From: Nocardia sp. NBC_00565
GTDB taxonomy: Bacteria; Actinomycetota; Actinomycetes; Mycobacteriales; Mycobacteriaceae
Direction: 5' to 3'
Assembly (NCBI RefSeq): GCF_036345915.1
Contig: NZ_CP107785.1
Coordinates: 7,006,001 to 7,070,000 of the forward strand
Length of the DNA stretch: 64,000 bases
The notes below the pieces were generated by a model that saw nothing but the letters and a program-made list of their open reading frames with translations, made no database searches and was not told where the DNA came from. The position numbers and the translations under genes were made by a program. This document shows, piece after piece, positions 43,380 to 50,376 of the stretch. Numbering within the stretch: position 1 is the first letter of the stretch; each line of letters starts with the position of its first letter.

Positions 43380-43562
43380 GTTTCACGAGAATCGTTGAAG
43401 GCCGACCTCGCCAACGCTGCGCAGCGCATCGCCCGCCTGGCTGGACGCAACAGGCAACTCGAGCCGAAACTGTCCGAGCTGCTGGGCGAAAGCGCATGGC
43501 GCGATTCCGGACTCGGCGCACCTGGCAAGGCGACGCGAGAAGCGTGTCGCCTTGGCGCGTGA
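43380..43562 (+). pseudogene. Remnant of a DUF6262-like integrase-partner gene
   Basis: The frame encodes SRESLKADLANAAQRIARLA, then GRNRQLEPKLSELLGE and SAWRDSGLGAP, strongly like the coiled-coil region of DUF6262-type proteins that accompany tyrosine recombinases in actinomycete insertions. The N-terminal domain and the rest of the coiled coil are missing, and the frame continues upstream (to 43254) only with non-family sequence. It is best read as a relic of a lost mobile element. Confidence 0.5.
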
Positions 43563-43565
43563 GGT

Positions 43566-44192
43566 CTACTTCGCAGCTTTGAGCTGCCAGCGCTGGTATG
43601 AGGCGCCGCGGGAGGCCATGGTCAGCTTTTCCCGGTCGGGAGCGTAGGTGAGCACAAACTCGGGTCGGCCCTGCTCGAAGAGGTAGCCATCCTCGGTCTG
43701 CCACCGCAGCCCGAGGGTCGACCCGGCACCGACAAGGAGTATTTCCATCGGTGGGTTAGATCCGGGAAGGGAGTCTCTAGGGGTACCCGGGCCGAGGGCG
43801 AAGCGCCCTTTGGTGCCTTCTTCGACCCTGTTGACCAGGTAATTACTCGCCCCGGCGCGGCTGTTTTCTCCGCTGGCGTCGAAGAACCACCACTGACGGT
43901 CCGAGCCGTCCGGGCGAAGCATGTGAACAGTGGGGTCGAAGACGTAGCCGGACTGACTGCCGCCCTGGCCGATCGCACCGGCCTTAGTGGTCAGAGCGAG
44001 TCCGGACTCCTCATTGACGATCAGGAAGTCACCTTCGGGAAACCCGTTGGCGACGAAGCTCAGCGGCCCTCGTTTCAGCGCTAGACCGTTACCGGTCAAC
44101 TCGATATCCAGTGCGGGCACGGGGACAGCCGCTATGACTAGTCCGACGACGAAGGCGACAAGCGATGCACCACCAACCCTTAAACGTTTCAT
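43566..44192 (-). CDS. Secreted protein of unknown function, 208 aa
   Basis: It has a signal peptide (MKRLRVGGASLVAFVVGLVI, cleavage near PVPALD) and a mature part of about 180 residues rich in Gly, Trp and Tyr, with segments FLIVNEESGLALTTKAG, RQWWFFDASGE and SYQRWQLKAAK. The repeated W/F-containing strands and the QRWQL ending resemble a beta-trefoil (ricin-like) lectin repeat, but I cannot confirm the fold. It lies at the left edge of the accessory stretch next to decayed mobile-element sequence. Confidence 0.75.
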   Translation of the reverse strand: MKRLRVGGASLVAFVVGLVIAAVPVPALDIELTGNGLALKRGPLSFVANGFPEGDFLIVNEESGLALTTKAGAIGQGGSQSGYVFDPTVHMLRPDGSDRQWWFFDASGENSRAGASNYLVNRVEEGTKGRFALGPGTPRDSLPGSNPPMEILLVGAGSTLGLRWQTEDGYLFEQGRPEFVLTYAPDREKLTMASRGASYQRWQLKAAK

Positions 44193-44248
44193 GCACAGAA
44201 GCTATCGCTCGCCGGTGCCCGCGAACCGACGCCGCGCTGAGTGGATGA

Positions 44249-44446
44249 CAGGACCGCCTGTACTTCGCCACGGATTCGGCCGAAGACATCGAGCGCCGCG
44301 TCCGTGTGCGACGAAACAGAAAGGCGCTCATCGCGCGTGACCTCGCGCCGTTGACGGTCGATCTGGTGCTCGATGAGGCGGTGATGCGACGTGTGTGGGA
44401 AGCCTTCACCGCTGGCATGGTCGGTGGAGGGTTCGACCGCCGCTAG
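44249..44446 (+). pseudogene. C-terminal relic of a DUF5753/Scr1-type regulator
   Basis: The frame opens after a TGA at 44246 and reads QDRLYFATDSAEDIERRVRV, then RRNRKALIARDLAPLTVDLV and LDEAVMRRVW. This matches the conserved middle of XRE-DUF5753 regulators (a YFA-acid-R pattern followed by LxEAxLRR). The helix-turn-helix part and a start codon are missing. An intrinsic terminator follows at 44464. Confidence 0.45.
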
Positions 44447-44463
44447 GCGCAAGCAGTAGAACA

Positions 44464-44500
44464 AGCCCCCAGCTCGAAGGCGAACGCTGGGGGCTGTTTT
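44464..44500 (+). terminator. Rho-independent terminator on the plus strand
   Basis: AGCCCCCAGC and GCTGGGGGCT form a perfect 10-bp stem with a 12-base loop, followed by GTTTT. It lies 17 bp after the DUF5753 relic and is probably that gene's old terminator. Confidence 0.8.
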
Positions 44501-44675
44501 CGTATATCCGCGGCTCCGGGGGGCGGTAGAAACGAGCATGTGAAGCGCTCCGGAAGGCCCTGAAGGCCTACCCGAAATTCTTTCTCCGACTGGGCAATCG
44601 GGAACCCGCAACCGTGAACGCTCGATGATGGGAGCTGTGTGACGGGAGACTGTCACACACGGTGCACGCTGAGAG

Positions 44676-44702
44676 GGCCGGGAGGTGAAATCCCTCCCGG
44701 CC
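44676..44702 (-). terminator. Hairpin terminator of the DUF3494 gene
   Basis: GGCCGGGAGG and CCTCCCGGCC form a perfect 10-bp stem around TGAAATC, 63 bp beyond the stop of the DUF3494 gene on the minus strand. Confidence 0.65.
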
Positions 44703-44765
44703 ACTCGCAGAGCACCTTTCGCTCTCTACCGGTACACAATGCCGGAAACCGGTGAATTGCCCAGG

Positions 44766-45956
44766 CTAGGCAGTACCACCGCCACCCGTTTCCGGAGACC
44801 CTTCGGGAACGTCCCCGCCACCGCCGGGTCCTTGCTCGCCGGGTCCTTCCTCGCCGGGTCCCTGCTCGCCGGGTCCCTGCTCGCCCGGTCCACCCGGTCC
44901 ACCCGGTCCACCCGGAATACCGCCACCGGGAATCGGAATGGGAATGGGGATGGGAATAGGGATGGGGACGGGAATAATTCCGACACCGCCACCGCCACCG
45001 GGGAGGCCGGGAATAATTCCGCCGCCGGGGAGGCCGGGAATAATTCCGCCGCCGGGGAGGCCGGGAATAATTCCGCCGCCGGGGGGGAAGGGGATGGTTG
45101 TCGCCGACGTTGTCGGCGGCCCTGTCGTCGTTGTCGGCGGCCCTGTCGTCGTTGTTGGCGGCGCTGTCGTCGTTGTCGTGGTCGGCGGCGCTGTCGTCGT
45201 GGACGTCGGTGGAATAACGCAGTTGGGTCGGGTGATCCTGTTGTTGTCCAGGGTGACCGAGCCGTTTCGTGCCAATAGCCGTCCCTCTACGATGGTTCCG
45301 GTCTGCGCCGAGATCGAGGTCAACGCCATGATGGTTCCGACGAAGGTGGTGTTGGTGCCCAGTGTCGCGGAGCTGCCTACCTGCCAGAAGACGTTGCACG
45401 GTGAGGCCCCGTTGATGAGGGCGACCGTGCTGTTCGATGCCGTGATCAACGTAGATCCCGCTTGGAAGATCCAGACCGAGTTGGGATCATTTTGCCCATC
45501 GAGGGTGACTGTCCCGGTTAGGCCCATGGGGCCCGCCGTGTTGTACACCCCCGCGACCAGTGTTTGGCCGCCGAGATCAGGGGGAGCGGCGGTGGCAGGA
45601 CCGCGACCCGCAGCATCGTTATATGCCGTAGTCAGATCCGTTTGCGCTTGCAACGCCACCGCGTCGGCAGCGTGGAAGGTTCCCGTTCCGGGGGTAATAA
45701 GTCCCGGCGGAAACCCGGTAATCGCACTCCCCGGGCTGACCCCCACATCACCGGAGATGATCGTAGGCCCCGTGTTGGTGACCGTCTGGCCCGCCAATAC
45801 CGCAAAGGACGCGGCTGTCCCCAACCCGACAGGGGGCTGGGCCGCTGACGCTACCCCATTGAAGATCAGCAAGACTGTGGCGGTCACAACCGTCACCGCA
45901 GCGATGATCAATCGTCCGACCGGACGCTTCCGGGGCGAGTTGGACGGCAATGTCAC
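44766..45956 (-). CDS. Secreted DUF3494 (ice-binding-like) protein with repetitive stalk and SPETG motif
   Basis: From GTG 45956, after a GAAGGA box, the product is 396 residues: a signal peptide ending VASAAQ; a DUF3494 beta-solenoid (about 45-245) starting [20 protein letters not shown] with [19 protein letters not shown]; then a stalk of TTTTTAPP blocks, three GGGIIPGLP units, a Pro-Ile run, [10 protein letters not shown] and GEQGPG repeats; and the end [10 protein letters not shown]. The solenoid is the fold of ice-binding proteins, but in soil actinomycetes its role is more likely adhesive or surface-linked. SPETG resembles a sortase motif, yet no hydrophobic tail follows. A class E/F-type sortase is encoded 3 kb away. 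Confidence 0.85.
45000..45080. repeat. Three perfect 27-bp tandem repeats inside the DUF3494 gene
   Basis: Copies at 45000-45026, 45027-45053 and 45054-45080, each starting GGGGAGGCCGGGAATAATTC, encode the nine-residue unit GGGIIPGLP. Flanking hexamer-like repeats (44932-44970) encode the Pro-Ile run. Exact repeats suggest recent slippage expansion of the stalk. Confidence 0.85.
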
Positions 45957-46355
45957 TGGTTTTCCTTCGCCGTTGATCGGCACACGTGTGAATGTCACTG
46001 CCTGTCTTCGATCCAGGTGGTAGGAGTGGATGGGTCGACGCAGTCGCGAATTACCGACGACCCTCGGCCGCATTCGAAACCGGCTCGAGCACACCAACAG
46101 TCCGAAGCCAGAAATTAACCCATCCGGGTTTGCGCGGCCTACGAAGTACCTTCCGATGCCGATCCAACGGGCGCGAGCTGCTCGCGCCAGTTGTTTGCCG
46201 CTGAAGCGGCGTGCGGTGTCACGGTCGAGTCTCGCCACGGAATTTTCAGCGGTTCGCAACAGCACGCGAGCCTTCCTCTGGCGGGCGACCAGGCAACACC
46301 CTCGAGGCCCGTTCTTGGGGGCACCATCCACCAAACAGGAAGAGGTTAAACAAAC
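45957..46355. other. Divergent promoter region of the surface module
   Basis: The region separates the DUF3494 gene from the mini-protein genes. It must hold the promoter of both. The minus-strand frame stays open through it but encodes no recognisable sequence. No operator was recognised. Confidence 0.35.
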
Positions 46356-46442
46356 ATGGGCGGTCTTCTCAGCGGTCTGCTGCCGATCGTGGGCAACCTT
46401 CTCACCGGTGTCGTCAGCGTTCTGGTCCACTCGCTGTTCTGA
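46356..46442 (+). CDS. Hydrophobic mini-protein 1, 28 aa
   Basis: An AGGAAGAGG ribosome site (46337-46345) lies 10 bp before an ATG that opens a 28-residue peptide starting [18 protein letters not shown] and ending HSLF. It is almost entirely Leu, Val, Gly and Ile with one Pro and one His and has no charged residue other than the terminus. It would be a membrane helix or amphipathic surface peptide. A similar peptide is encoded 120 bp downstream. Nothing is known of its function; too short for most gene finders. Confidence 0.55.
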
Positions 46443-46455
46443 CACGAATGCTTGG

Positions 46456-46510
46456 TTTGCGGCTCGACCCCCGACATCTCAAATCAGTCGGTCGGGGGTC
46501 GGGCCGCAAA
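46456..46510. terminator. 20-bp-stem hairpin between the two mini-protein genes
   Basis: TTTGCGGCTCGACCCCCGAC (46456-46475) and its complement (46491-46510) match at 19 of 20 positions around a 15-base loop. It begins 14 bp after the first mini-protein stop. No T-run follows. It may terminate, attenuate or stabilise the transcript between the two peptides. Confidence 0.7.
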
Positions 46511-46562
46511 CAATTCACTACGCCGAACCGATACAAAGATGATCAACCGAGAGGCTGTTCGA

Positions 46563-46652
46563 ATGATCCTCCAGCCCGTAATCAACCTCGTCACAGGACT
46601 TCTCGCCGTCGTGGGAGACACACTCCATTTTCTGACCGGCGGCCTGCTCTAA
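46563..46652 (+). CDS. Hydrophobic mini-protein 2, 29 aa
   Basis: The ATG at 46563 follows GAGAGG (46549-46554) by 8 bp and opens MILQPVINLVTGLLAVVGDT ending LTGGLL. An in-frame ATG at 46539 would add eight residues (MINREAVR). Composition and the repeated G-L-L pattern match mini-protein 1, so the two look like distant paralogues. The cutinase-like gene starts about 80 bp downstream on the same strand, so the peptides may be its leader genes. Confidence 0.55.
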   Translation: MILQPVINLVTGLLAVVGDTLHFLTGGLL

Positions 46653-46734
46653 GGGGCTATGACGACCCCAGCGGGATGAACGTGCAGTGCGGCAAGTCCA
46701 AGTAGAGCTCGAGTCGGTGAGAGGTCGGATCGTT

Positions 46735-48552
46735 GTGTCGAGGAAGATAGCTCAAGCACTCGCCGTAACCGGCGTGTCTGCCGTCATCGCAGCGACCGGC
46801 GTCGTCGTCGCCCAACCCTGCGCCGCTGCGCCGGAATTCGATCCGACCGACTGCCCAGCCCTGTACACCCTCGGCGTTCAGGGCACAGGGCAGTCCTCTC
46901 TCAGCGCATCGCCCACCATCGACACCGGCATGCTGTCGGGCGTTTTCGCGCCATTGCTGGCCAGCATTTCGAAGCCCGGAGCGGTCGATCGCGCATACGT
47001 GCCCTATCCCGCGGCGTTCGGCGGGATCGTGCCCGGCGCTGCCTCGCCGCCGTACGCACAATCCGTCTCCGCCGGACTCGACGAACTGCGGAGCATGGCC
47101 CGCGCGATCAGCGATAAATGCGAGAACACCAGCCTGGCTTTGCTGGGGTATTCACAAGGGGCACACGTTGTTTCGTTGTTCCTGCGGGAAGTAGGGTTCG
47201 GATACGGTGTGGTGGCACCGGACAAGATAGCTGGCGCCGCACTCTTCGGCGACCCGACCCGTGACCCGGGGGCACCAGTGTTCCCCGGCGCGCCGGGACA
47301 GCGCACACCCGCCCCCGCACCCGGCACCGACCGAACGGCATTAGCGGGGCTGCCACCAGTTGCACAGTCGATGCCGGCGGGCGGTGGCATCGGACCGCAA
47401 CAAGACATTGCCGCGGACTTCGGCGCGCTCACCGGACGCGTTGCCTCCGTATGCATTGCAGAAGACCTCGCCTGCGACGCACCCACCGGCGCACCGATAC
47501 TGCATGCGTTGACGAATATCATCGGCCAGGTACTGCTATCCCCTCTCGACCCAATTACCGCACTGTCCTCTATCATTCAAGCCGTCGTCGCGACAACCGT
47601 GAAGACCGCCGCCGCCGTAGTAAGCAATGACTTGGTCGGCAACACGGTCGAAACACTGACGCTGACGTCTGAAAGGACGCTCAGTCAGCGCCTTGCGGAA
47701 GCCTCGGACCCGCGGGTGCCGGTTTATGGTCCCGACGCGCAGGCGGCGTTGCTCAAAGTGGCTACAGTCTCGCTCAATATTTTGCTCGCCGTAGTAGGCG
47801 TGACACTCGAACCGAGCGAAGTCGCCGAAATTCTCAGCGTCGGCGAGAATCAACCCTTGGACGGCATTGCCCTGCTTGCGGAAAAAATTACCGGCCCGCG
47901 ATTCCCATCGGTGCCGATCGAACCCGCCGGGAACCTGGTGACACAAGCGTTCGACGCGGTCGCCTTTGCCGTCGCAGACAACGCCGCGCTCCTCGAACCC
48001 GCAACGTGGGCGAGGTATCAGGATGTTGTCGCACGCCATGGCGCCTATGCATCGGAATCCGTCACCGATACCGGCCAGACGTCTACCCAGTTCGTCGCGG
48101 GCTGGTTTGCCGCGCTGGCACGCAGTCTCGCCACCCGGACAGGCTCCGCCGCCAAGGCTACCGCTGCACCGAGTGCTCCTGGTCGGCCAATGGATCCACA
48201 TCAGGTCGTAGCGCCAGGCGATGCATCGCCACTGGCGAGCCAGGCCGCCGAACCAGCTACGGCCAAATCCGCGCCCCTACATCGCGCACCGCGGAAAGAC
48301 ATGTCAGCATCCGTTACCGCTGACCAAGCCGACACTGCTACGTGGGATTGCCTGTGGCTGCTCCTGATGTTCCTGGTTTCGCGGCGACTGCTTCGACATC
48401 GGCTCACCGCTGGCGATCTCCGATCCAGCTTTCTTGCCGTGGCCACGAACTCAGCCTCGAACAGCGCTGGCTGGTATCGGAGCGCACCGCCGATAGCCGC
48501 AGCAGTCGGAGCCATGTCGGTTATCGCGGTGTCGGTGCGCGAGTTCCTGTAG
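46735..48552 (+). CDS. Secreted, C-terminally anchored cutinase-family hydrolase
   Basis: From GTG 46735 (GAGAGG box 9 bp upstream) the protein has 605 residues: a signal peptide with core ALAVTGVSAVIAATGVVV, a cutinase-like alpha/beta-hydrolase domain (about 38-265) with nucleophile GYSQG (Ser 140), Asp 244 in CIAEDLAC and His 257 in PILHALTN, then a 300-residue alanine-rich region and a C-terminal hydrophobic helix (WLLLMFLVSRRLL) plus a second (AAAVGAMSVIAVSV). Nocardial and mycobacterial cutinase-like proteins are esterases or phospholipases; the long C-terminal anchored part is unusual against the 200-230-residue norm. Substrate unknown. Confidence 0.82.
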   Translation: MSRKIAQALAVTGVSAVIAATGVVVAQPCAAAPEFDPTDCPALYTLGVQGTGQSSLSASPTIDTGMLSGVFAPLLASISKPGAVDRAYVPYPAAFGGIVPGAASPPYAQSVSAGLDELRSMARAISDKCENTSLALLGYSQGAHVVSLFLREVGFGYGVVAPDKIAGAALFGDPTRDPGAPVFPGAPGQRTPAPAPGTDRTALAGLPPVAQSMPAGGGIGPQQDIAADFGALTGRVASVCIAEDLACDAPTGAPILHALTNIIGQVLLSPLDPITALSSIIQAVVATTVKTAAAVVSNDLVGNTVETLTLTSERTLSQRLAEASDPRVPVYGPDAQAALLKVATVSLNILLAVVGVTLEPSEVAEILSVGENQPLDGIALLAEKITGPRFPSVPIEPAGNLVTQAFDAVAFAVADNAALLEPATWARYQDVVARHGAYASESVTDTGQTSTQFVAGWFAALARSLATRTGSAAKATAAPSAPGRPMDPHQVVAPGDASPLASQAAEPATAKSAPLHRAPRKDMSASVTADQADTATWDCLWLLLMFLVSRRLLRHRLTAGDLRSSFLAVATNSASNSAGWYRSAPPIAAAVGAMSVIAVSVREFL

Positions 48553-48723
48553 GGGATACCGACAAATCGCCATTTTGTAGTGGCTGCGGGGTGGCCGTGA
48601 CACAGAGCGGGCCCACCACGACAAGACCGTCTCCTGATCCCGCGACAACCTGGCGCGCATTATTCGCAGTCGAGCCGCCCTCATCGACCAAGGTTGATGC
48701 TGCGGGGCCGGGCTTCTTCAAGG

Positions 48724-49524
48724 CTAGCCAGCGGACGGCGGGGTGATGCCCACGAGCCCGGTGTAGGCCACCACGTTGGACTGATAACTTCTTATGGTGT
48801 AGTCGAATTCGCCGCCACACGTCACCAGTTGCAGCGCGCTGTATCCGCGTGAGTCGTAGACCTCATGGCTTGGGAACTCTGACTTCAGATAGGTGGCTAC
48901 CGTCTGGACGAGGAAATGAGCAACCGATCGGTCCGCCCGTGTCACGTCGACCTGGTCCCCGGGGCGCAGTGACGATAGTCGGTAGAAGACCGCGGGTCCG
49001 GTGTAGGAGTCCACGTGTCCCAGGATGACCGCGGAGCCCATGTCTCCCGGTGGGGGGCCGTTTCGGTACCAGCCCGCTACCTGAAAGTCCGCCGGAAGTT
49101 CTACGGTGCGATCAGGATTGAGGCCGAGCTCGGAGAGTGGTCCATCCACGGCGATAGCTGGGATGTGTAGTTCCACAGGGAGCGATTCTGGGAGCGCGGC
49201 CGGCGCCACGTTTCCGAACGCGGTCACGGCGGCGTCGGTGGCCGGGACCAGGTTCCCACCTGGGCACAGTCGAGCGATCGGACTCGGTGCCGCAAGAAGT
49301 AGCAGAATGCTCGCCGCTATTCGCAGGCGCCTCGACGACACCGGTGAACTGCGTCCTGTAGCTCGCGCTTTGGTCATTCCGGTTCCGGCCGTGCGGCGGT
49401 GGGTCCCTTCACTACCGGGTCCACCTGGACCACCGGGTCCTTGCGGTGGTAGTTCCGGAATCGGTGGGCCGGGACCGCCGGGCAACCCTGGAATGACCGG
49501 TACAGCACAAACCGACGACCTCAT
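48724..49524 (-). CDS. Sortase, class E/F type
   Basis: The ATG at 49524 with a GAGGAG box gives 266 residues: a Pro/Gly-rich N-terminus (IPGLPGGPGPPIPELPPQGP), a membrane helix (IAASILLLLAAPSPIA), and a sortase beta-barrel with the catalytic His 170 in ILGHVDSY, Cys 236 in LQLVTCGG and Arg 245 in YTIRSYQ. It is a transpeptidase that should cleave a PxTG-type signal and link proteins to the wall. The unusual N-terminal PG-rich stretch echoes the stalk of the DUF3494 protein encoded nearby, which carries SPETG and is a candidate substrate. Confidence 0.87.
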   Translation of the reverse strand: MRSSVCAVPVIPGLPGGPGPPIPELPPQGPGGPGGPGSEGTHRRTAGTGMTKARATGRSSPVSSRRLRIAASILLLLAAPSPIARLCPGGNLVPATDAAVTAFGNVAPAALPESLPVELHIPAIAVDGPLSELGLNPDRTVELPADFQVAGWYRNGPPPGDMGSAVILGHVDSYTGPAVFYRLSSLRPGDQVDVTRADRSVAHFLVQTVATYLKSEFPSHEVYDSRGYSALQLVTCGGEFDYTIRSYQSNVVAYTGLVGITPPSAG

Positions 49525-50376
49525 AGGAACTCCTCGACAGATAGAATTCATCCACAAGCCGCACATGCAATTGTGAATGCAGCGGATCGGTTCTATTGCC
49601 TCGGCAACCAGCGAAGTGCTTATGGCACTCGACACGTGTTACTGCGATAATACTCTTCAAGACTATGGCGCCTAATTAAACTTTGAGTTTGGGTGGTTGT
49701 ACCGAAACTAAATGTGATTCATCTATTAGGCTGCCGTAGCAGCCATGGGCGGGAGATCGGGCGAAAGTGGTGCGGCCCCTCTCCCGTCGGACTCGTATTA
49801 GACCGGGCGACCGGTCGGTTTAGAGGGGTCGAGTAGGGGCGAGATCAGGGATTTCTGGTGGTGACGTTGAGTGTGGCTGATCCGCCCGCCGAGGGTGTGG
49901 TGGCAGCGAGGAACAAGGGGCGCCCGGCCGAGCAAGGCCGACTATCGGGCATTGGGGTCGCGCATGTCGGCCGGGGAGCCGAGCGCGGACGGGAGTGCGA
50001 ACACAACCATCGGGCGATACGAATTGTGGCGGCCCCGGCGCGGTACAGCGCTTCTATTGTCTCCGAATCCTTTTCGCGCGTGTAGCGCCTGTGGCGTCGA
50101 CCCGGCGGCGTCACAGTCCACTAAATCCTTGTTCCGGTAGTCGATCTTCGGTCGATGCGGACGGCTGGGTGGCTGCGTGTGTGATGCGCGCGCCGGGTCG
50201 GATCGTTTGAATAGTTAGCTACCTTTTGGGGCGTCGATCTTCAGTAGGCCGCGGCTCGCTGCCCTGGGCTGCCAGGCCCGGCCCCTGGTGATGAGATGGT
50301 CGCCAGCGTGCAAGACGCTGGCGGACCATCCATCGGCATTGCATCGGGCCCGCGAAACACCCTGTAGCGCCTGTTG
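49525..50376. other. Large AT-richer intergenic region
   Basis: Bases 49640-49740 are clearly richer in A/T than anything around them and probably carry the sortase promoter (reading leftwards). Short frames at 49845-50114 (minus) and 49871-50140 (plus) have no recognisable family. The composition suggests foreign or decayed DNA. A hairpin at 50295-50330 belongs to the next gene. Confidence 0.4.
50295..50330 (-). terminator. Hairpin terminator after the thiolase-like gene
   Basis: GATGGTCGCCAGCGT and ACGCTGGCGGACCATC form a 15-bp stem with a single bulged base and a GCAAG loop, 47 bp beyond the thiolase-like stop on the minus strand. No T-run follows. Confidence 0.65.

Follow-up and report, generated by a model that had tools for sequence, protein, structure and literature searches.

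Conserved mini-peptides linked to a cutinase-like hydrolase in Nocardia suggest a very small kind of outer-membrane peptide

The stretch of DNA analysed here (the window, 64,000 nucleotides) covers bases 7,006,001-7,070,000 of the single-contig 9.71-Mb genome of Nocardia sp. NBC_00565. It carries a cassette of five genes, encoding a DUF3494 protein, two hydrophobic mini-proteins (mini1 and mini2), a cutinase-like hydrolase and a sortase (Table 1). The minis recur in other Nocardia genomes next to cutinases of one particular clade, and for the minis and the cutinase the evidence points to the mycolic-acid outer membrane (mycomembrane). With likely relatives in other bacteria that have such a membrane, the tiny helical peptides at the core of the cassette suggest a class of outer-membrane peptide that is new and very small. 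The conservation and linkage of the cassette genes are firm. A mycomembrane role for the minis is a good hypothesis to which we give rather less than an even chance, and the full five-gene system is rated weaker than that.

Mini-peptides and their linkage to a cutinase clade

Two hydrophobic mini-proteins had been proposed in the first-pass annotation of the window, and these are borne out. A filter was applied for open reading frames (ORFs) of 18-42 amino acids (aa) that are hydrophobic, have a Shine-Dalgarno-like site and contain at most one Lys or Arg. Of 182 background tiles of the window, just one held an ORF that passed it, which, together with conservation in other species, argues that the mini-ORFs are more than chance. 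For mini2, an alternative upstream in-frame ATG is possible at 46,539. The core of the cassette, made up of the minis and the cutinase, is older than the whole: a mini1 profile (alignment A1, threshold expect value (E) <= 0.0022) picked out 18 of 150 Nocardia genomes, with a cutinase gene adjoining in all 18 and mini2 present in 17; genome G161 has a mini2-like stretch without a visible start codon. The ratio of non-synonymous to synonymous polymorphism (pN/pS) in a group of eight Nocardia was 0.077 for mini2 and 0.35 for mini1, and the values for the minis of a second group were 0.32 (four genomes) and 0.23 (three genomes). Judged from their sequence alone, the minis contain no Lys or Arg, are neutral to slightly acidic and have no evident signal sequence. 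As helices they are amphipathic: for the five peptides tested the hydrophobic moment was equalled by 0 to 1.2% of shuffles, the fractions of shuffles scoring as high being 0.008 for mini1 and 0.001 for mini2. No Pfam or NCBIfam model matches the minis, and a literature search with the peptide sequence strings found none.

Two other frames were noted. In genome G010 a further hydrophobic ORF of 28 aa (L074:1498-1584, + strand) has a Shine-Dalgarno-like site, on a 3-kb locus without a cutinase match. Downstream of the minis of G078 lies a 183-aa frame (L053:6801-7352, - strand), probably secreted, with DRGRG-like repeats and an amphipathic-looking end.

The linkage was also approached from the cutinase side. 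A search of 60 relatives yielded 30 cutinase loci, to which 20 more were added from the best places lacking a locus. A tree was built from these 50 loci, four plasmid loci and four mini loci as anchors, giving 56 rows (L024 and L029 were too short). Every row with an upstream mini falls in a single 12-row clade with support of 100/99, and this clade includes eight of the 50 mini-independent loci (L007, L022, L023, L025, L185, L188, L189 and L190). By the fixed filter an upstream mini was found at 6 of these 8 loci, compared with 0 of the 42 outside the clade and 0 of the 4 plasmid loci. L022 carries a 35-aa mini that lies under the hydrophobicity limit, and in G017 (L185) a 27-aa mini that every profile had missed lies upstream. 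An earlier tree placed all 21 mini rows inside a clade of 23 rows, which represent 21 different loci. A link between minis and conjugation was considered and set aside, as an upstream mini is absent from all 46 cutinase loci examined outside the clade (42 from Nocardia, 4 from plasmids).

The hydrolase itself had been described as a long, anchored, cutinase-like enzyme, which agrees with its PF01083 match and its C-terminal hydrophobic helices. It has a GYSQG nucleophile motif, the Asp, and a His at Asp+13, a spacing that we take to be that of fungal cutinase. Whilst Ser156 and Asp260 are present in all 51 aligned rows, His273 occurs in only 20 of them, the window enzyme included. A closer inspection reveals that 19 of 21 clade loci retain His273, compared with 1 of the 25 rows outside the clade that could be read (3 were unreadable), and the same is seen in the 20 later loci (4/4 with minis, 1/13 readable rows without). 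Hence the catalytic residues look complete in most of the mini-linked enzymes, but not in many of their cousins. A C-terminal hydrophobic 19-residue segment (mean >= 1.57) is found in all 10 full-length mini-linked rows of the earlier tree, and in G001; the mean is 0.62 in G022, and the best of 28 rows outside the clade reaches 1.15. This active-site pattern, like the coding conservation, linkage and helix amphipathicity, is a computed result. Outside the mini clade (e.g. L008-L021), position 273 is mostly Lys or Arg in readable rows. Since the catalytic His is replaced in this way in most of them, many annotated 'cutinases' of this family in Nocardia may be non-hydrolases.

An AlphaFold2 model of the enzyme (mean predicted local distance difference test score 68) has a mostly confident cutinase core at residues ~50-270, a helical domain at 270-488 of partly lower confidence, and the C-terminal helix at low to moderate confidence. 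The nearest structures are Rv3802c (5w95, E 2.6e-11) and MSMEG_6394 (3aja). These two, Culp6/Rv3802c and MSMEG_6394, share the cutinase core and are the best matches in both structure and sequence; however, the window enzyme reaches 63.4 of 570 bits for Culp6, leaving the NCBIfam cut-off unreached, and it has the helical domain and C-terminal hydrophobic helix in addition. A PE-PPE match only just exceeded its threshold (21.6 bits against 21) and was taken to reflect no more than a kinship of fold. Long cutinases of the same family, at up to ~50% identity, were found on 295 plasmid records, 62 of them typed conjugative, including plasmids of Rhodococcus, Gordonia and Nocardia. The mini clade does not include the four plasmid loci examined, which also have no C-terminal hydrophobic segment; at the catalytic His position one has His, one has Arg and two are unreadable. 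Of the four plasmid regions viewed, one has a SCO6880-family gene near and two have a DUF6668-family gene near. According to one report, the conjugation of pFiD188 is promoted by a cutinase (PMC6794481), and another describes Rv3451 as a trehalose dimycolate hydrolase (PMC4503659). Given these reported roles and the fold matches to Rv3802c and MSMEG_6394, a substrate in the mycolate layer is plausible by analogy for the window enzyme.

Table 1. Features of the window around the cassette (positions in the window; G145 is another Nocardia genome)
Feature	Position	Strand	Basis
Conserved five-gene cassette	44497..49947	.	blastn similarity limits vs G145
Secreted-looking 208-aa protein	43566..44192	-	open frame, outside conserved cassette
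Secreted DUF3494 (ice-binding-like) protein with repeat stalk	44766..45956	-	PF11999, 223.9 bits vs 28.7
DUF3494 domain	45,231-45,800	-	
mini1, 28 aa	46356..46442	+	AGGAAGAGG upstream
Hairpin, 21-pair stem, between mini1 and mini2	46455..46511	+	z -5.5 to -5.9
mini2, 29 aa	46563..46652	+	MILQPVINLVTGLLAVVGDTLHFLTGGLL; also matched by 22-aa peptide profile, E 0.0025
Cutinase-like hydrolase, 621 aa	46687..48552	+	PF01083, 56.6 bits vs cut-off 25.9
Active site Ser156; Asp260; His273	47,152-47,154; 47,464-47,466; 47,503-47,505	+	
C-terminal hydrophobic helix, residues 547-574	48,325-48,408	+	
Class F sortase	48724..49524	-	NF033748, 177 bits vs cut-off 166

A wider family of 22-residue peptides

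Weak matches to the A1 profile led to a stand-alone ORF of 22 aa that typically reads MGLVAGLIGIVGDLLHLLLGGL. It has a Shine-Dalgarno-like site and, at most of its loci, is followed by a hairpin directly past the stop codon. With a profile of this peptide (A4), 37 of 401 genomes of the family were positive at E <= 2e-8, spread over 10 of 31 genera and including 10 of 148 Nocardia. One copy of the gene was found in each genome, nearly invariant across the 10 genera. Among 377 genomes of the order, A4 matches were confined to the same family (5 at E <= 0.01). A degenerate DNA pattern was then run on a named genome collection of 84,980 species and returned 27 stretches, from Dietzia (4), Rhodococcus (6), Nocardia (6), Corynebacterium (6), Hoyosella (3) and Lolliginicoccus (2), all six of which we take to be genera of mycolic-acid bacteria. 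The pN/pS of 0.15 for these 27 genes is no standalone evidence, the pattern itself fixing residue classes. Within 8 kb of the gene, no ORF family is common to more than 3 of the 27 loci.

The 22-aa peptide is likely, though not certainly, akin to mini1 and mini2, the link to mini1 being the weaker of the two. On this basis, one can picture an unannotated family of amphipathic peptides of 22-31 residues that spans the mycolic-acid bacteria, with a near-invariant 22-residue gene on the one hand and a diverged Nocardia pair wired to an active, membrane-anchored cutinase on the other. We regard this wider picture as possible but doubtful. If it were true, these peptides would be the smallest known building blocks of the mycomembrane, and would come with a dedicated acyl-hydrolase. 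To our knowledge, the building and permeability of the mycomembrane in Nocardia, Rhodococcus and Dietzia are poorly understood outside the examples of Corynebacterium and Mycobacterium, and a peptide family tied to an envelope-type hydrolase would offer a direct genetic handle on both. The family also illustrates how shortness lets genes escape annotation, as no Pfam or NCBIfam model covers it. Mutual exclusion between the stand-alone peptide and the mini operon in Nocardia was tried and rejected (of the 20 and 10 genomes concerned, a single one, G022, is common to both sets, which is no departure from chance; P 0.60, in a test that predates the finding of the G017 mini).

A possible role in the mycomembrane and competing explanations

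The model that we put forward, tentatively and at somewhat less than even probability, is that the minis are paired amphipathic mycomembrane peptides, similar in kind to PorA/PorH, acting with the cutinase, whilst the DUF3494 protein and the sortase make up a second module. Mini1 and mini2 would enter the mycolic-acid outer membrane together, as a pair, and there build or line small assemblies in the manner of PorA/PorH in Corynebacterium. The Ser-Asp-His cutinase would cleave or transfer acyl (mycoloyl) esters around the peptides, fitting or releasing them, and the hairpin after mini1 would lead to mini1 being made in excess over the enzyme. The second module, in which a class F sortase is joined by the secreted stalk protein with its DUF3494 domain, would serve surface display. 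For the minis and the cutinase we infer translation, location, pairing, substrate and expression ratio.

PorA and PorH are described as small helical proteins, encoded together, without a signal sequence and O-mycoloylated at Ser, and a hetero-oligomeric pore has been predicted for them (PMC12632848). O-mycoloylation is reported to fall on Ser and, more rarely, on Thr, in a setting of small residues (PMC11066868). Like PorA, PorH and ProtX of Corynebacterium glutamicum, the minis are very small and helical, have no identifiable signal sequence and occur in a mycolic-acid host. PorH and PorA are encoded together, and the minis are paired likewise in 17 of 18 mini1 loci. The likeness is one of kind, by analogy, and not of membership.

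Several observations weigh against this model. The minis, at 25-31 and 23-29 aa, have about half the length of PorA/PorH (57 and 45 aa) and, unlike PorA/PorH/ProtX, are cutinase-linked; no sequence similarity to PorA/PorH emerged, although none was sought directly. The LSG position of mini1 carries Gly instead of Ser in 8 genomes, so that there is no conserved single site for acylation. Among the four genomes that share the whole cassette, the minis have pN/pS values of 0.84 and 1.59, which are not favourable, although with 24 and 15 pairwise changes they rest on too few differences for a verdict. The linkage also has exceptions: G001 (L023) has a clade cutinase without a mini found, mini2 was not seen in G012, and the minis of G078 are downstream of their cutinase. 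Position 273 is Arg in the clade enzymes of G012 and G022. An earlier count of 18 of 21 clade loci with an upstream mini was largely by construction, because 17 of the 21 loci came from mini searches. As for the wider family, the E-values for kinship are weak (0.05-0.4 for the mini1 profile against the 22-aa peptide, 0.0025 for A4 against the window mini2), and most of the 150 Nocardia have neither a mini1 match nor the 22-aa peptide.

The hairpin between mini1 and mini2 allows a different explanation. It folds in all 17 loci examined, whilst its sequence varies between groups, and of 16 loci compared with 100 shuffles each, 13 were more stable than all, two were more stable than 99 and one (G149) than 94. 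Short ORFs and a strong hairpin ahead of a structural gene are what would be expected of leader peptides, whose translation, together with the hairpin, sets the level of the cutinase, the peptides themselves being inert. However, the minis of G078 come after the cutinase, conservation is at the level of residues and not of codons, and the 22-aa relatives are single small genes, mostly with a hairpin past the stop, and any neighbour gene recurs at no more than 3 of their 27 loci. We consider the leader-peptide explanation quite unlikely. Under the mycomembrane model the hairpin would be in keeping with different expression levels for mini1 and the genes that follow it.

That the peptides are amphipathic and only 22-31 aa long also recalls released surfactants or antimicrobials, such as the staphylococcal phenol-soluble modulins (PSMs), with a cutinase that clears their path or gives self-protection. 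The 22-aa peptide even has a weak PSMalpha match (PF17063, 12.8 bits, E 0.13), but this does not reach the cut-off of 23, and no match was listed for the minis. Moreover, the peptides are neutral to slightly acidic without Lys or Arg, there is no transporter among the five genes, and in the searches made the peptides were restricted to mycolic-acid genera, so that a surfactant or antimicrobial role appears unlikely, although less so than a leader function. The least probable of the explanations considered is that of toxins of a type I toxin-antitoxin-like system that are kept with the cassette. The peptides are tiny and hydrophobic, and the cassette is found at different places; against this, no Rfam family reached its gathering score in the loci tested, the eight related loci included, and the 22-aa gene was recovered as one copy per genome, nearly invariant in 10 genera. 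Three sub-threshold Rfam matches in the window region (E 0.017-0.32) were taken as chance.

The conserved cassette and its second module

The DUF3494 gene, mini1, mini2, the cutinase gene and the sortase gene are found in the same order and orientation in the window and in three other Nocardia genomes (G154, G141 and G145), with 84-92% DNA identity between the window and these three. The limits of blastn similarity differ slightly between comparisons (44,510-49,893 against G154; 44,584-49,924 against G141). When loci of 17 kb were compared, with about 4.5-7 kb on each side of the cassette, no flanking blastn match of more than 80 bases was common to the compared pairs, G141 and G145 included, and the cassette thus sits at four different places. 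Close copies of its genes are confined to the same three genomes, namely of the sortase (88-90% identity) among 150 Nocardia, and of the DUF3494 domain (89-98%) and mini1 (93-96%) among 148. More distant matches are wider spread, with sortase matches at E <= 1e-10 in 33 of 150 Nocardia and DUF3494 matches at E <= 1e-8 in 15 of 148, the next best being G112 at 82%. A transposase-like ORF, by eye of the IS3 type (L050:6480-7313, - strand), separates the DUF3494 gene from mini1 in G154, where a DnaB-like helicase with an apparent intein (by eye; L050:12885-15530, - strand) is also encoded near the cassette.

The first-pass annotation had grouped these genes, together with the secreted-looking 208-aa protein, as one candidate system, to be checked by whether its genes are gained and lost together. 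Part of this stands, in that the five genes form one block in four Nocardia genomes with differing flanks; the 208-aa protein lies outside the block, although it is an open, secreted-looking frame. Beyond the block, the set splits. None of the 14 other genomes with mini1 and cutinase has a sortase match, and DUF3494 matches occur in only one of them (G113), at least about 180 kb from the minis (148 of 150 genomes drawn). Conversely, G112 has adjoining DUF3494 and sortase genes, yet no mini1 match. The supposed single system is therefore better described as an assembly of two modules, and the hydrophobic or adhesive coat envisaged for it is possible. Sortase matches were found in 7 of the 15 genomes with a DUF3494 match (P 0.025), but 4 of these 7 are the block itself.

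Alternatively, the five genes may share only a mobile stretch, on which the minis with the cutinase and the DUF3494 protein with the sortase are unrelated passengers. Each set is found without the other, and only four genomes were found with all five genes together. We give this explanation close to an even chance. On the other side, the order of all five genes is retained in four genomes at 84-92% DNA identity despite changed flanks, and we take this to mean that the whole cassette has been kept together.

The DUF3494 protein is, as had been supposed, secreted and furnished with a stalk, here of TTTT, GPP, IPIP and GPGEQ repeats, and its PF11999 match is strong (Table 1). An adhesin role is as possible for it as ice binding. 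Its fit to the second module is imperfect, which again counts against the model: the protein ends five residues past PETG, with no hydrophobic segment and no basic tail, and the arrangement looked for in a sortase substrate (PxTG, hydrophobic segment, basic tail) is incomplete throughout, the tail being absent in all four block genomes. By comparison, the DUF3494 protein of G112, 82% alike in the domain, has HPETG, a hydrophobic stretch and then RLRRRP, i.e. a full sorting signal, and a class F sortase is encoded next to it on the same strand. Since this relative has the full tail and the block four do not, the window protein can be read from its sequence as a former or altered sortase substrate.

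The sortase had been assigned to class E/F, and its NF033748 score narrows this to class F. Systems of a class F sortase with a PETG-type substrate are matched in so far as the window sortase exceeds the cut-off and the G112 pair has a full sorting signal; they differ from the cassette in that the substrate-like protein of the window stops after the motif and is separated from the sortase by three genes. A PG-rich N-terminus of the sortase, described as matching the stalk, was not confirmed at the protein level, with a pN/pS of 1.19 compared with 0.31 for the rest (four genomes). As this part is unconstrained as protein, a start at an internal Met near 49,377 may be more likely, although length differences in the N-terminus are whole codons, which runs counter to an internal start.

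Among the flanking genes, the 208-aa protein has no Pfam or NCBIfam match. Three decayed mobile-gene fragments had been reported around the cassette, an interpretation not confirmed for two of them, which lack a Pfam match above cut-off; the stretch taken for the third was not an open frame. Elsewhere in the same genome, at about 6,280,100-6,290,700 (L110:4130-14746, - strand), a 3,538-aa frame with tandem IPT/TIG-like repeats (by eye) ends in a DUF3494 domain; this giant surface protein is the only other DUF3494 match of the genome.

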